Shown here piece after piece: positions 15,700 through 23,746 of a stretch of 42,246 nucleotides of DNA (position 1 is its first letter; every line of letters starts with the position of its first letter). The stretch spans positions 1 through 42,246 of the IMG/VR virus record IMGVR_UViG_3300034062_004862. One strand, 5' to 3'. The DNA is from a virus. The notes below the pieces were generated by a model. That model saw nothing but the letters and a program-made list of their open reading frames with translations. It ran no database searches and was not told where the DNA came from. The position numbers were made by a program, and so were the translations under genes.

Positions 15700-16962
15700 T
15701 TATTTTTTAGGAATGAGCGAATCAAAATCGACACCTTTCAAAACTGACCAATGTGTTTTATTCATTTCATCTAATACTTTTGTTTTGTTGTATATCTCAT
15801 CCTCAAAAGAACCATCAAATGAATTAGTAAAATCTATTATTTGTTTAATTTCTCTTTTTGTTTTTTCAGAAAGATTATTTGTTTCACTGCCATTTTCTAA
15901 AAATGATGTAATTTTATTTTTTTCAGTTTTTGGTAAAGTGTTTAAAGCAGAAAATGAAGGACCCCATGCGTAATAAAAATCTAAATGATTAGAACTTGTG
16001 ATGTGTTCTTTATCTAACATATAATTTATAAAATCAAAAATATGATAAACATTCCAAATCGTAGTTGTATATTGAAAATTATAATTCAAACCAGTACTTG
16101 GTTCTTGCACATTTTTAGGGTTTGCGTATTTTTTTATAGTGTTTAAATTTTGTTCAAATCGTTTCCAATTCAAACCTGTTCGTTGGTATTCACCCACTTC
16201 TTTAATACCATCGCATGAAATTGATAAAAATACTTTATAAAATCCTTTCCATAAATCAATCAAACTTTGTTCATCGTATTTAATTACTGAAAGATTTGTG
16301 TTATAATGTATAGATAAACTTCTAGCAGAAAAAAATTCAGTTGCGCTTAATTGAAATTCTTGAATTAGCATAGTATCATGCAAATATTTAAGAACTTCAA
16401 AATGTTCTGGCATAATTAAAGGTTCACCTCCTGCAAAGTAAATGCTTTTTATATCTGATAAATGAACTTTTAAATCTTGAGCAATTGTATCGGATACTTT
16501 AAGTATTTTTGGATAATCTTTAAGTTGGTGTTCTTCTCGTATCTTTCCATAATCTTCATACCAATTGGATGAAAAATTGTGATTACACATTCTGCATTTA
16601 AAATTACACAAATTAGAAAATCTAACATCTAAATGTTGAAATTGTGATGGTACACTATAATCATCATTTACTTTTGGAAAAATCCATAGAGGATTATTAT
16701 TGAAATCTAATCTAGGAGAATGATTTGTAGTATCTTCTCTTTTATAACATACATCACAAACTTTATTTCGTTTACCCTCCAACATATCTTTACGAAGTTC
16801 TTTCATTTGCTCGGAGTTGAAAGCTTCATCAATAGACATTGTTTTAAGATTCAAAGGTTCATCAAATCCACCTGCTATACAACATGGTTTCATTTCACCC
16901 TTTGGTTCTGCATACAAATGTACGAATGGTAAAATACAAAAAGTATTACTTTCTGAATTCAT
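15700..16962 (-). CDS. Radical SAM protein with SPASM/twitch-like cysteines
   Basis: A 420-residue radical SAM enzyme. The 4Fe-4S/SAM-binding C119-x3-C123-x2-C126 lies in LDVRFSNLCNFKCRMCNHNF, followed by YFAGGEPLI (the GGE motif for SAM). Unusually, an auxiliary cysteine group precedes it: C9, C27-C28, C69 and C72, with ILPFVHLYAEPKGEMKPCC. That order is known from phage and cyanobacterial 'twitch' radical SAM proteins whose substrate is undefined. It starts as TAATG with the zinc-ribbon gene. Nearby SGNH and GT2 genes hint at glycan or peptide modification, but I do not assign a product. It is visibly more AT-rich than the replication genes. Confidence 0.87.
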   Translation of the reverse strand: MNSESNTFCILPFVHLYAEPKGEMKPCCIAGGFDEPLNLKTMSIDEAFNSEQMKELRKDMLEGKRNKVCDVCYKREDTTNHSPRLDFNNNPLWIFPKVNDDYSVPSQFQHLDVRFSNLCNFKCRMCNHNFSSNWYEDYGKIREEHQLKDYPKILKVSDTIAQDLKVHLSDIKSIYFAGGEPLIMPEHFEVLKYLHDTMLIQEFQLSATEFFSARSLSIHYNTNLSVIKYDEQSLIDLWKGFYKVFLSISCDGIKEVGEYQRTGLNWKRFEQNLNTIKKYANPKNVQEPSTGLNYNFQYTTTIWNVYHIFDFINYMLDKEHITSSNHLDFYYAWGPSFSALNTLPKTEKNKITSFLENGSETNNLSEKTKREIKQIIDFTNSFDGSFEDEIYNKTKVLDEMNKTHWSVLKGVDFDSLIPKK

Positions 16963-18316: not shown

Positions 18317-19027
18317 TTATTTTTTCCAGTATCCTACATCATTTCTAAACCAATCAATATTATTTTTGTTTGAATAAGTTAAAATAATATTTTTTATAAA
18401 TGATAAGTTTCCCATTTTTTTAAATCTTCTATCATCCTGACCAATATACTTATCAAGTATTTTAAATCTTGACCTTGGTATTTGTTTACTTAACCAAAAA
18501 TCTTCTGAGTTTTGTATTGTTTCATCAAAACCACCTAATTCATAAAATTTATGTTTTGATATGAAAAAATAACAACCGGTACAAAAAGTGGGTGACATTA
18601 TTTTTCTTATAATTTCAAACACTTTCCAAGTTAACCAAGGTTTAATACCTTTCACGGTAGATTTTTGTTTACATCCAATTATATCAAAATCAAATGCATT
18701 ATTTAAAGTTTCAGATATTGTATCGGAATCCAATAATACAGAATCTGCATCTAAAAATAAAATAAAAGGAGTTCTAACAAGTTCTGCTCCTTTGTTTCTA
18801 CCATAGGCTACACTACCACCTGTTCGGATTTCTATCTCTAAATTTTCAAAATCGTTATTGGCTTTGGATATGTGTTCTAATGTCTTATCAGTTGAATTAG
18901 CATCACAAATAATTACACGAATTTTTGTATGTAGATTCTGTCTTGATAAATACCATAGTGTGTTGTAGATGTACCGTTCTTCATTATAAGATGGTATTAC
19001 TACCGTAAATAATTCTGATGTATGCAT
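18317..19027 (-). CDS. Family 2 glycosyltransferase
   Basis: A 236-residue GT-A enzyme beginning FTVVIPSYNEERYIYNTL, a canonical GT2 first strand. The nucleotide region has VIICDANSTDKTLEHI and the donor site has FILFLDADSVLLDSD (DxD at D-A-D). C-terminal ELGGFDETIQNSEDFWLSKQI carries the E-D catalytic-base motif and the 'GGFDE' acceptor loop. It has no clear trailing membrane helix. Its ATG lies only 6 bases past the terminator-like hairpin that ends the receptor gene, so its expression may depend on read-through or an unseen promoter. Confidence 0.9.
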   Translation of the reverse strand: MHTSELFTVVIPSYNEERYIYNTLWYLSRQNLHTKIRVIICDANSTDKTLEHISKANNDFENLEIEIRTGGSVAYGRNKGAELVRTPFILFLDADSVLLDSDTISETLNNAFDFDIIGCKQKSTVKGIKPWLTWKVFEIIRKIMSPTFCTGCYFFISKHKFYELGGFDETIQNSEDFWLSKQIPRSRFKILDKYIGQDDRRFKKMGNLSFIKNIILTYSNKNNIDWFRNDVGYWKK

Positions 19028-19033
19028 AATAAA

Positions 19034-19059
19034 GAGGGGAGGGTTTACTCCTCCCCCTC
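19034..19059 (-). terminator. G/C-rich terminator-like hairpin after the receptor gene
   Basis: On the minus strand, GAGGGGGAGG and CCTCCCCTC flank AGTAAA, giving a stem of about nine pairs with one bulge, followed by TTTATT. It begins 20 bases after the stop of the TonB-dependent receptor gene. It is by far the most G/C-rich short element in the window. The reverse orientation lacks a useful tail. It probably ends or weakens transcription from the receptor gene toward the glycosyltransferase gene. Confidence 0.72.
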
Positions 19060-19079
19060 ATTTATAAATATCTACTTAA

Positions 19080-22000
19080 TTAATTAAATGTATATCTCAA
19101 CCCGAATTGCATTCTCCAAACATCGGATACACCTACCGTAGGTCTATATGTTTGTGATACCAAATCAGTGCCAAAGTTTCTCATTCTAAATTGAGGTCTT
19201 CCATCTGCACTTGCAGGTCCGCCTTGTGCTGAAGATGGAACAACTAATGGTTGTGTTGTATTAAATGTTTGTCCAATACCCCATTCTGAATTCAACAAGT
19301 TACCCAAGTTAAGAACATCGACTCTGAATTCCAAAGCGTTTTTCTTTCCTTTGATGTTGGTGAATAATTGTTGTGCAAATGCCAAATCAGCTCTATAAAC
19401 CATCGGCATAATTACCGCACCTCTTTCAGCATATTCACCTCGATTTGCACTTAGATACTTATCTTGTTGAATATACGCTTCCCATGCATTAGCTTGTTCT
19501 GCTGCAGTGAATGTTTTTCCATTAGCAGTGAATTGTTGGAAGTTCATTTGGTCCTTACTCTTTGGAATAAAGATAAGGTCATTAGCAGTACCACCATCAT
19601 TATTCAAATCACCACCATATACATAACTGGCGTTTCCAAGAGTTCTACCTTCCCAAAATACTGAAATTGATGTGTTTCCGAATTTGAAGAAATCTTTGGA
19701 ATAACTTGCAGTACCGAATACTCTATGACCCATGAAGTTGGAAGAGAATCCAAGACCAGGATTATTAGGGTCTTGAGAAATTGGATTACCAAACCAAGTA
19801 CCAGCTGCAATGGAACCAGGGTCTACTGTGTTTTTAGTTTCACCATAACTATATGCTCCTTTAACAAATAATCCATTCGTGAAAGGTCTTTCCAATGAGA
19901 AAGATGCAACCCAAGAATATCCAACTGCTTGATTAGAAAGAGTTACAGCGTTAGGGATTTTAGAATTAATTCTATTACTTGAATTCCATCTATATCTACT
20001 ATCAGGACCAGTAAAGTTAGATTGTGCCACTGGTAGGTTTGCGTTATAATATGCAACACCATTAACATCTGAACTATAAATGAACTCGCCAGTTGCAATA
20101 ATACCTAAAGGTAGTTTTTGGTCAACTGCAACATTCGTTCTCCAAACTTGTGGAAATCTAAAGTTTGATTCAGTTAATGCCAATTCGTATGAAGATGCTG
20201 GATTGCCAGTCACCGTTGTTGGTTTGTAAGTATCTGGATTTGGATTGAATGGTCGAGTAGTGGTGTTATCCAACTGAGCAAAACCTGTTAAGATACCATT
20301 GTTACCCACCTGATTTGAAATCCATACATAAGCAGGTCTACCTGTGAATACACCAGAACCTCCTCTGAATTGAGTCTTTTGGTTATTAAATACATCCCAA
20401 TTGAAACCTACTCGTGGAGACCATAGAATGTTTGCCTCTGGTAGTTGGTCTGTTCTGAAGTTAACAAATCTACCATCTGCGTTTCTGAAATTCATAGTTT
20501 CAACTTCTGTGTTTCTTAATGCAGTTGCCCCGAAGTATGGAATATCAAATCTCAAACCTGCAGTAAGTTTAAGGTTTGTTCTTGCCTGAAATTCATCTTG
20601 AGCGTAAAGACCGAAGTAATCAACTTCTAGTGGTTGAACTGGTTTTTCGGAACCAGGAATGTTATTCCATCTTACTTGAAATCTTCTCAAGTTTACTCCT
20701 GAAGGAGTTTTGTTCTCATTTGTCAAGAAGTTGTTTGCATCTTTGTAGAAATCATCCAAAGAGTTATACACATAAACTGATTGAGAACCCGGAAAGAACA
20801 CGTTTTCAGATTGGTATTTTTCATAGGTACCACCTGCAGTAATTGTGTGATTTCCAGCAAAGATTTGAAGATTGTTTTGAACTTGGAAAGTTTTGTATCT
20901 AAGTTCGTTGTTCGGAGTAAATGGTTCAAATCCAAATGAAGTATAAGTTGCTCCATTATTTAGAATATCCACCATAGGGAAGAATTCACCCTTGTAACCA
21001 CGAGATTCATCTTGGTAAGTATAACCAACAATCAAGTTGTTTGTTACATTCGTTCCAATTCTTGAGTTCAACTCACCAACCACAGAACGAATGTTTTCCA
21101 TAATGCTGTAGTTCGAGTTTTGGAAGTTCAATGCTTCGGGTCTGAAGTTTCTATTACCAAAACCTAATGAAGAAGAACCTGACATCAAGACATCAGTAGA
21201 CGAATCTAAATGATTATATCGTACAGTAAATTTATTTTTATCGTTGATGTTATAATCAAATTTCACCAAGAATTTGGTTGAAAGAGTTTCATTATCATAA
21301 TCTTGGAATGGTCCAGTTTCATAACCAAACTTATCACTCAAAAATCCACTCAAAGTATTCAAATCAGATGCTAGAACTCGTGTCACATTACCAGTGATTG
21401 GTTCACTACCATTGTTTGCTCTCCAAGTTGTGCCTGGTCTTGATTCTTGGTCATCTTCGAATGATGCGAAGAAGAATAGTTTATTTTTTACAATTGGACC
21501 ACCAACTCGGAAACCTTGTTGTTTGTAAGTGAAATCACCTGGATTAAATGTATTTACACCAGCCTTAGTACCTACATTGTTGTTGTTTCGCCAGAAATAG
21601 TAAGCAGAACCTACAAATTCATTTGTACCACTTCTTGTTACGGTGTTTACACCTGCACCAGTAAAGTTACCTTGTCTAACATCGTAAGGTGCTACGTTTA
21701 CCGAAATTTGGTCAATAGCATCCAAAGAGATTGGAGATACACCAGTTCTACCACCTGGATTAGAACCACTTCCAAGACCGAATGAGTTGTTGAAATAAGA
21801 ACCATCTACGGTAATGTTATTCAATCTACCATCTTGTCCTGCAAATGATTGGCCATTGGATTGTGGAGTTAATCTTGTGAAATCGTTAATACTACGAGAA
21901 ATAGTTGGCAATCTATTCAAGTTTTGATTTGTGATACCAGTGGAGGCACCAGTTCGTTCGGAACTAAATACTGGATTTTTTTCACCTACTACAATCACTT

Positions 22001-22370
22001 CTTTCAAATCAGAAGTTTCGGTAAGTAAACTAAAATCAACATTTGTGGTTACACCCAAACTCAAAAATACTCCATCTACTTTGGATACCGAGTAACCAAT
22101 AAAAGATGTAGATAATGAATAAGGACCACCAATCCTCACATTTGGGATAAAATATCTACCTTCGGAATTAGATACTGTATTGTACTTTGTTCCAGAAGGT
22201 GTGTGAATTGCAGTAATTACTGCTCCGGGTAGAGATTCACCTTCGTTTGAACCAACTTTACCCGAAATACTAGCCGTTGTTACCCCTTGTGAATAAGCCG
22301 TGAGACTTAGAAACATAGTAAGTAAAGTAACAAAACTAAACTTCATTAAGTTTTTTAATTTGTTTTTCAT
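19080..22370 (-). CDS. Oar/TonB-dependent outer-membrane receptor, host-like
   Basis: A complete outer-membrane receptor of about 1100 residues. Numbering from the upstream ATG at 22397: signal peptide about 10-37 (MKNKLKNLMKFSF... ending AYSQG), a carboxypeptidase-regulatory-like domain at about 43-125 (SISGKVGSNEGESLPGAVI), a linker with EVIVVGEK at 133-140, a plug at about 145-265 (including GRLNNITVDGSYFNNS and GNFTGAGVNTVTRSGTNEF), and a beta-barrel to the C-terminus ending MQFGLRYTFN, whose last residues suit barrel assembly. I place the start at the ATG at 22370 because it begins the signal peptide; an in-frame ATG at 22397 also exists. No frameshift or stop is seen. It sits 11 bases after the guanine-enzyme stop when counted from 22397. 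Such genes belong to Bacteroidota nutrient uptake and are foreign to phages. Confidence 0.93.
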   Translation of the reverse strand: MKNKLKNLMKFSFVTLLTMFLSLTAYSQGVTTASISGKVGSNEGESLPGAVITAIHTPSGTKYNTVSNSEGRYFIPNVRIGGPYSLSTSFIGYSVSKVDGVFLSLGVTTNVDFSLLTETSDLKEVIVVGEKNPVFSSERTGASTGITNQNLNRLPTISRSINDFTRLTPQSNGQSFAGQDGRLNNITVDGSYFNNSFGLGSGSNPGGRTGVSPISLDAIDQISVNVAPYDVRQGNFTGAGVNTVTRSGTNEFVGSAYYFWRNNNNVGTKAGVNTFNPGDFTYKQQGFRVGGPIVKNKLFFFASFEDDQESRPGTTWRANNGSEPITGNVTRVLASDLNTLSGFLSDKFGYETGPFQDYDNETLSTKFLVKFDYNINDKNKFTVRYNHLDSSTDVLMSGSSSLGFGNRNFRPEALNFQNSNYSIMENIRSVVGELNSRIGTNVTNNLIVGYTYQDESRGYKGEFFPMVDILNNGATYTSFGFEPFTPNNELRYKTFQVQNNLQIFAGNHTITAGGTYEKYQSENVFFPGSQSVYVYNSLDDFYKDANNFLTNENKTPSGVNLRRFQVRWNNIPGSEKPVQPLEVDYFGLYAQDEFQARTNLKLTAGLRFDIPYFGATALRNTEVETMNFRNADGRFVNFRTDQLPEANILWSPRVGFNWDVFNNQKTQFRGGSGVFTGRPAYVWISNQVGNNGILTGFAQLDNTTTRPFNPNPDTYKPTTVTGNPASSYELALTESNFRFPQVWRTNVAVDQKLPLGIIATGEFIYSSDVNGVAYYNANLPVAQSNFTGPDSRYRWNSSNRINSKIPNAVTLSNQAVGYSWVASFSLERPFTNGLFVKGAYSYGETKNTVDPGSIAAGTWFGNPISQDPNNPGLGFSSNFMGHRVFGTASYSKDFFKFGNTSISVFWEGRTLGNASYVYGGDLNNDGGTANDLIFIPKSKDQMNFQQFTANGKTFTAAEQANAWEAYIQQDKYLSANRGEYAERGAVIMPMVYRADLAFAQQLFTNIKGKKNALEFRVDVLNLGNLLNSEWGIGQTFNTTQPLVVPSSAQGGPASADGRPQFRMRNFGTDLVSQTYRPTVGVSDVWRMQFGLRYTFN

Positions 22371-22408
22371 ACTTTTTTCTTTTTTAAAATTAAACATAAC
22401 ATTTTACT

Positions 22409-23479
22409 TTACAAAAGATGTGGTTTTGCTTCATTAATTCCTGAGTTAGTCACAACAACATATTTGGGTTTGAATTCTTCAAGATTTCTTGCCCCACCAT
22501 AAGATAATGCAGATTTAACACCATCCAACAATCCATTTACAATAAACTTCACACCACCCTTGTATGGAATTGTTGTTGATTCTCCCTCCACATTTCTCAC
22601 TTGCTGTCCGTTAACTACTTTGGTTTCCAATGATGCCGAACCACGATATCTTTTATAGAGACCTTTTGGAGTTTCAATTATTTGACCAGGTGCTTCTTCT
22701 GTGCCTGCCAATAATGAACCCAACATTACAGAACTTGCTCCCAATGCTAGTGCCTTAGAAATATCACCACTTGTTCTAATTCCCCCATCTGCCATAATTG
22801 GAGTTTTAGCAACTTTGATAATTTCTTCCAAGCAACTAACATTTGGTACTCCAAAACCTGTTTTTATTCTTGTTGTACAAAGTGAACCCCCACCGATGCC
22901 AACTCTTAACCCATCTGCTCCTGCTTTTTCCAAATCTATTGCAGCTTGGGCAGTAGCGATGTTACCGGCGATGATATCAACTTTCTCATCAAGATTTTCT
23001 TTACACCACTTTATCATGTCTATAACATTTTTGTGGTGACCATGAGCAACATCAATCACTAAAATGTTGGCTCCACTTTCTACCAATGATTTGGCTCGTT
23101 CTTTATCCAATTCCGATACTCCTATTGCAGCCATGATTGGAATCAGATTAATTTCGGCATGCCAATCATCGTACATTACACCCCACTCTTCGAAAGGTCC
23201 TCCGAACCCTTCTCCGTATATTCTTTGATATAATGATTTTACTACTCGTGATTGTTCTTCGATACTCATAAATCTATGAATACAACCAACTCCACCCATT
23301 AAAAATATTTTGAACGCCATTTCTTCTCCACACACTGTATCCATAGGGGATGCAACAAGTGGATTTAAAAGACCGTATCTTCGAGATACGAGAGTGTTAA
23401 GATTGATTTGTGTTCTGGAGGGAATATGAGAATATTGTGGTACTAATTGGATGTCATCGTAAGTAAGATGATAATTCAT
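22409..23479 (-). CDS. IMP dehydrogenase/GMP reductase-family enzyme
   Basis: A 356-residue TIM-barrel enzyme of guanine-nucleotide metabolism. The catalytic loop is [20 protein letters not shown] with Cys201. ASPMDTV (43-49) and [37 protein letters not shown] are the barrel signatures. There are no CBS domains; the usual insertion site holds only a short segment near residues 88-112. [12 protein letters not shown] resembles GMP reductase, while the tail [14 protein letters not shown] resembles IMP dehydrogenase, so I leave the reaction open. It would raise the GTP or dGTP supply, or feed a guanine-modification route. Leader TTAAAATACAAGTTATATG. Confidence 0.88.
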
Positions 23480-23491
23480 ATAACTTGTATT

Positions 23492-23746
23492 TTAATCGTG
23501 ATTTTCAGTTAACAACTTTTTCTCTGATGTTGGTGTTGAATCCACATTTGCAGTTGTTGTTGTATAGTAATAAGGATTTGGATGTCCTTTACCATCAACA
23601 TAAGGTGGGTGGATATTATAGTTCGGTTCATCATTAACCTTTGCCAATGTATCTTTTAATGCATCCCATTGTTTGGGTGTTATATTATATTCATGTACTC
23701 CTTGAGTAAATCCTTGTAACCAAAGGACGAATTCTTTTGATGTCAT
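23492..23746 (-). CDS. Hypothetical small phage protein (EFVLWLxGF type)
   Basis: An 84-residue protein starting MTSKEFVLWLQGFTQGVHEYNITPKQWDALKDTLAKV, a helical opening that I have seen in short, uncharacterised tailed-phage proteins. The rest is polar (HPPYVDGKGHPNPYYYTTTT) and probably flexible. It has no signal peptide, cysteines or catalytic motif. It starts as TAATG with the groES stop and lies 12 bases ahead of the guanine-enzyme gene, so it is transcribed with both. Confidence 0.75.
   Translation of the reverse strand: MTSKEFVLWLQGFTQGVHEYNITPKQWDALKDTLAKVNDEPNYNIHPPYVDGKGHPNPYYYTTTTANVDSTPTSEKKLLTENHD

Follow-up and report, generated by a model that had tools for sequence, protein, structure and literature searches.

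The window analyzed here, a virus record of 42,246 bases from IMG/VR that represents a large freshwater phage, carries on its minus strand a gene for an Oar-type TonB-dependent receptor (TBDR) of 1105 amino acids (19080..22397), recognized from its reading frame and from Pfam matches. The frame runs from an ATG at 22397 to a stop at 19080, with 1105 codons and no internal stop, and coincides exactly with the intact Oar-type frame of about 1100 codons that an earlier note on this DNA had placed here.

All parts of the protein are given below with their minus-strand coordinates. The N terminus (residues 1-36, 22290..22397) resembles a signal peptide, recognized by eye from its lysine-rich start and hydrophobic core, followed by QGVTT. 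Next comes an N-terminal extension (NTE, residues 37-130, 22008..22289), the part that is altered in phages, in which Pfam matched the carboxypeptidase-regulatory-like domain (CarboxypepD_reg, PF13620) over residues 43-124 at 1.8e-16. A TonB-box-like segment, DLKEVIVVG (residues 130-138, 21984..22010), was identified by a profile comparison in which it lines up with the segment IGEVIVTS from a different family of phage TBDRs; its form is retained relative to the host version, ELSEVLVTA. The plug segment (residues 139-260, 21618..21983) had no Pfam match to PF07715 in the phage protein and only a sub-threshold one (3e-4) in a host homolog (L123), but residues 141-260 are about 90% identical to their counterpart in Algoriphagus proteins. 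The outer-membrane barrel occupies residues 261-1105 (19083..21617), and its best stretch, residues 369-1036, matched the Oar-type barrel OMP_b-brl_4 (PF25183) at 3.8e-43 (148 bits against a cut-off of 30). Thus, of the domains named in the earlier note, Pfam recovered the barrel and the regulatory-like domain, while the signal peptide rests on inspection and the plug on its similarity to host proteins.

A phmmer search of PDB sequences with the single TBDR protein returned no match, and a 16-sequence family profile matched only in the NTE, to a SusC homolog (9hfj, 5e-4) and a TonB-dependent receptor (6ytc, 5e-3). An AlphaFold2 model built from only 22 close sequences had a mean pLDDT of 43.3, too low for the model to be usable.

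The gene is tightly packed, as had been observed before: only 11 bases separate it from its upstream neighbor, a gene of the IMPDH/GMP-reductase family that we call guaB (22409..23479, minus strand). The 356-aa product of this guaB-like gene falls under the NCBIfam cut-offs of IMP dehydrogenase and GMP reductase alike. Downstream lie a terminator-like hairpin (19030..19060, minus strand; -17.6 kcal/mol, z -2.1) and a gene for a family 2 glycosyltransferase (18317..19027, minus strand). The surroundings are T4-like replication genes (DNA polymerase, clamp loader and ribonucleotide reductase) together with GroEL and GroES, and the metabolic cargo of the window includes, besides the IMPDH/GMP-reductase-family gene, glycosyltransferases and a radical SAM gene. 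The latter (15700-16962) is a twitch-domain radical SAM gene in a phage, scoring 321 bits against an NCBIfam cut-off of 170. The interval between groES and guaB holds a small gene (23492-23746) whose first half is conserved and whose second half is variable and of low complexity; its product is 84 aa long in the window, 112 aa in contig L051 and 146 aa in contig L008. Pfam and PHROGs searches of the flanking genes turned up no SusD-like lipoprotein with which the receptor could form a SusCD pair.

The receptor gene in other phage contigs

The TBDR gene was found in 10 other IMG/VR contigs, each with a different data set number; across the part that matched, identity is 87-100%. In three of them (L002, L003 and L004) the protein is identical to that of the window. 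As for position, guaB lies directly upstream in 8 of the 10 (the same three plus L005, L007, L008, L010 and L011), and the glycosyltransferase gene is seen downstream in five of these eight (L002, L003, L004, L007 and L008). One copy (L007:2283-5480) shows an in-frame loss of 30 residues, corresponding to window residues 549-578, which is either real or an assembly error.

In contrast, contig L051 presents an empty site, in which guaB is followed by a hairpin and then by the adjoining glycosyltransferase gene, without the TBDR gene. In guaB, GroES and the clamp loader, this contig shares 87-93% identity with the window. Because a similar hairpin is present at this empty site, the hairpin is part of the locus and not of the insert; the strong hairpin previously noted at the end of the gene does exist, but it is not tied to the insertion. 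The same junctions in other data sets, together with the empty site, rule out an assembly join, against which the packed fit had already been taken to argue. In more distant relatives (L016, L027 and L032/L044), guaB is followed by a different gene. The nearest named phage by polymerase (51%), Microcystis phage Mel-JY01 (L381), has a gene order resembling that of the window (polymerase, clamp loader, guaB, glycosyltransferases), and the receptor gene is absent at that place. Mel-JY01 was recorded from a cyanobacterium, which bears on the question of the host of the window's phage group.

Two of the 10 contigs, L006 (89%) and L009 (87%), carry the TBDR gene amid genes other than those of the window. 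These contigs encode a T4-like terminase, portal, head protease and Clp-type ATPase, and the first three of these rule out mislabeled host DNA. Identity of their terminase is about 34% to the one of G359, a genome of 288 kb related to the window's phage, and 44-63% to those of three other guaB-bearing phages. Given the terminase distance to G359, it is unlikely that these contigs come from another part of the genome of the window's phage. The distant terminase and the phage genes on these contigs therefore indicate that the TBDR clade is common to two distant phage lineages, which may share it either through phage-phage exchange or from a common source. In a further contig (L005:3293-7200), the guaB side of the window's lineage is joined through the receptor gene to a downstream context of the L006/L009 type. 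A crossover test found about 96% identity to L008 until near codon 690 and 85-89% thereafter, so that L005 is either a recombinant or a chimeric assembly.

The Oar-type gene is not the only TBDR in such phages. Three relatives without it (G361, G369 and G362) have another TBDR instead: in the first two, a protein of 904-906 aa in which NTE, plug and barrel are all clear, and in the third a like match. The viral collection yielded 407 stretches that match this family, and it was located at L212:3181-5901 (minus strand) and L213:5025-7739 (plus strand) in guaB-bearing phages. An 827-aa TBDR, divergent from the Oar gene, accompanies the latter in the second lineage (L006:5237-7720 and L009:5241-7724, minus strand) and belongs to a family of 117 matching viral stretches. 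A 398-aa protein overlaps the end of this gene in both contigs. We did not find the 827-aa protein of L006 in 76 Algoriphagus-group genomes at E 1e-50, a search run without a positive control that shows only that no close relative is present. Among 31 contigs with a 904-aa or 827-aa TBDR, picked mostly for length, 15 have a T4-type portal gene; therefore, at least those 15 are phages, and some of the remainder may be misassigned host DNA. With two further families in hundreds of viral contigs, phage-borne TBDRs are therefore recurrent. No PHROG family matches the Oar-type gene. The earlier note had called such receptors not a standard phage gene, a statement that must be qualified in view of these families and a published megaphage example.

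That example is a putative SusC TBDR in the megaphages Mar_Mega_1 and LR745206, interpreted as an uptake helper (PMC9723777), and we found nothing closer in the literature on phage-borne TBDRs. The window gene resembles it in being a TBDR in a large phage genome for which uptake is the proposed role. However, the megaphage protein belongs to another TBDR family (that of LR745206 matches our 827-aa family at 26.7% identity over 96%), and the text consulted on it contains no analysis of selection, of where the gene came from or of change by domain.

Origin and selection

The nearest bacterial genes found encode Oar proteins of Algoriphagus, which are 72-80% identical to the phage protein over nearly the full length. 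In a tree of 37 proteins, built along the lines of the comparison with host receptors that had been proposed, the six phage copies of nearly full length group together in a single clade (SH-aLRT 100) that lies inside Algoriphagus; its sister clade is made up of Algoriphagus and Bacteroidetes metagenome genomes. A tree of plug and barrel alone placed the phages inside Algoriphagus in the same way with strong support, and in a tree of the NTE alone they fell outside Algoriphagus with weak support. The simplest reading is a single origin: phages would have acquired the gene one time from a bacterium resembling Algoriphagus (Cyclobacteriaceae), and it would now be resident in them. We infer the phage host from the gene tree only.

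Between phage copies, dN/dS is 0.035-0.075 at dS of 0.2-1.5. Comparing the window with L008, the TBDR gene has a dS of 0.93, and ten neighboring genes range from 0.12 to 1.58 (median about 0.68). Because the value for the TBDR gene lies within the range of its neighbors, the gene has probably traveled with them since these phages parted. Its composition is also that of the phage. GC3 is 0.25 for the phage TBDR, 0.15-0.28 for phage backbone genes and 0.38-0.44 for the Algoriphagus copies, and codon usage correlates at 0.925 with the backbone and at 0.72-0.83 with host Oar genes. The gene therefore combines all the marks of a host-derived auxiliary gene, namely a host homolog, a phage clade, purifying selection and phage composition. 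Judged from these sequence comparisons, it is a resident phage gene that selection has retained intact.

These data bear on whether the gene is a mere passenger or an artefact, that is, an assembly join or a recent neutral capture from the host. The junction in L005, where two phage contexts meet through the receptor gene, does mean that chimeras or recombinants are possible at this locus. However, with the junctions in other data sets, the empty site, the phage-like codon usage and dN/dS far under 1 at high dS, we regard this explanation as highly improbable and reject both of its forms. The earlier idea of a host gene caught in passing finds no support, since phages have long carried the gene, purifying selection on it is strong and its codon usage is phage-like.

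Domain-specific change and the possible role of the receptor

To compare domains, we used group consensus sequences, with the window's phage group as lineage A and the L006/L009 group as lineage B; the NTE was taken as residues 37-140 (104 sites), including the TonB-box-like segment. In the NTE, the phage consensus differs from that of the sister hosts at 47/104 sites (lineage A) or 49/104 sites (lineage B), and the two phage lineages differ from each other at 41/104, compared with 7-13/104 among host clades. No such excess is seen in the barrel (125-146/844 differences between phage and host against 135-155/844 between hosts) or in the plug (11-13/120 against 8-12/120). The p values for the contrast are about 1e-11 (8e-12 for 47/104 in the NTE against 125/844 in the barrel); because they assume independent sites, and because the phage copies have a common ancestry, they measure the contrast and not repeated events. 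Identity in the NTE is 54% between phage and Algoriphagus and 87-92% among Algoriphagus, and dN/dS is 0.14-0.28 in the NTE (window against L008, L005 or L006) compared with 0.04-0.05 in the barrel of the same pairs. When the barrel was scanned in 25-residue windows, none was clearly more diverged from the sister hosts than the hosts are among themselves.

The data give no demonstration that the NTE was swapped in from a foreign donor: when 395 genomes of the same class were searched, the phage NTE was matched best by members of the Algoriphagus group. Because even these reach only 51-56%, the NTE has either changed fast in place or come from an unsampled donor.

A barrel and plug at host level together with an altered NTE favor a functional transporter whose coupling in the periplasm has changed, rather than a decoy based on receptor loops. 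Such a pattern would be expected of a transporter that is retained because of its substrate and whose coupling has been adjusted, unlike a decoy with altered surface loops. Taken with the retention of the gene and its phage codon usage, the periplasmic change suggests that the phage uses the transporter during infection. We propose that the TBDR is produced in infection along with guaB, exported by its signal peptide and inserted into the outer membrane of the infected cell, where host TonB would power it through the retained TonB-box-like segment and it would import a substrate needed by a large phage. The substrate side would have been kept, and the coupling to periplasmic partners (the choice of TonB, gating or host regulation) changed. 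As one whole, from a resident captured Oar-type gene to TonB-driven uptake with a recoupled NTE, we give this account an even chance of being right. Of the three possibilities raised in the earlier note, the new uptake channel fits best. Against uptake, the gain may be small late in a lytic infection, and a role other than uptake, such as exclusion or protein export, would select for an intact barrel too.

One such role is exclusion, in which the phage version of Oar would flood the outer membrane and displace a host copy bound by rival phages, or debris would titrate the rivals. Phages classically use TBDRs, FhuA among them, as receptors, and FhuA is inactivated by the small phage proteins Llp of T5 (PMC9586334) and Cor of phi80 and N15 (PMC11436027). 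Like them, the phage TBDR is a phage protein that would act at the level of an outer-membrane TBDR, and a copy from within the Algoriphagus clade is what replacement requires. However, Llp and Cor are small blocking proteins that bring about superinfection exclusion at FhuA, whereas the phage TBDR is receptor-like with 1105 aa and is not of their type. Escape from rivals also predicts altered surface loops, and the excess change lies in the periplasmic part instead; other TBDR families in other phages further point to a general use rather than to one receptor. We therefore consider replacement or decoy unlikely. The masking or replacement suggested earlier survives at that level, but it should show as changes in the barrel loops, and the barrel lends it no support.

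Phage PA-2 offers a parallel in its lc porin, which is likewise a complete outer-membrane barrel borne by a phage. Unlike the window TBDR, lc is a general porin of a temperate phage and has no TonB plug.

Protein export, by which the receptor would release a phage protein before lysis, is suggested by Oar of Myxococcus, which is needed for secretion of the protease PopC (PMC6434023). The phage gene shares with this and the Cyclobacteriaceae Oar-type transporters a PF13620-type NTE, a TonB-box-like segment and a large PF25183 barrel, but those transporters are bacterial and not phage-encoded, and the phage NTE has diverged from the Algoriphagus NTEs as described above. Since no candidate exported protein was found and most TBDRs import, with Myxococcus as the exception, export seems quite improbable. 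A regulatory or stress role, in which the altered NTE is the working part and, for example, draws host TonB off other receptors, would account for the excess change being in the NTE only and for the difference between the two phage lineages there. It would also predict weaker constraint on the barrel than the dN/dS of 0.03-0.06 that we observed, and has in our view only a slim chance of being correct.

Returning to TonB-driven uptake, a broader version would be that large T4-like phages commonly bear their own TonB-dependent transporters of several families, this one refitted in its NTE with plug and barrel unchanged in kind, and that part of the infected cell's nutrient import is thereby under phage control. 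We put this forward tentatively, as a possible but rather doubtful generalization.

It was already known that phages bind and block TBDRs, and a putative SusC in megaphages has been published (PMC9723777). New here are a conserved Oar-type TBDR of phages, the evidence of selection on it, its domain-specific change and the breadth of phage-borne TBDRs. The gene genuinely belongs to phages and is conserved in them; its protein class is known, its kind of setting is known though little studied, and the domain-specific pattern is new and testable: phages carry a TBDR of their own, under strong selection across a long divergence, with one domain changed. The altered NTE amounts to a natural experiment on a part of Bacteroidota transporters whose function is poorly understood. 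Should the protein work, lytic infection would affect traffic across the outer membrane, with consequences for nutrient flow in fresh water and for competition between phages.
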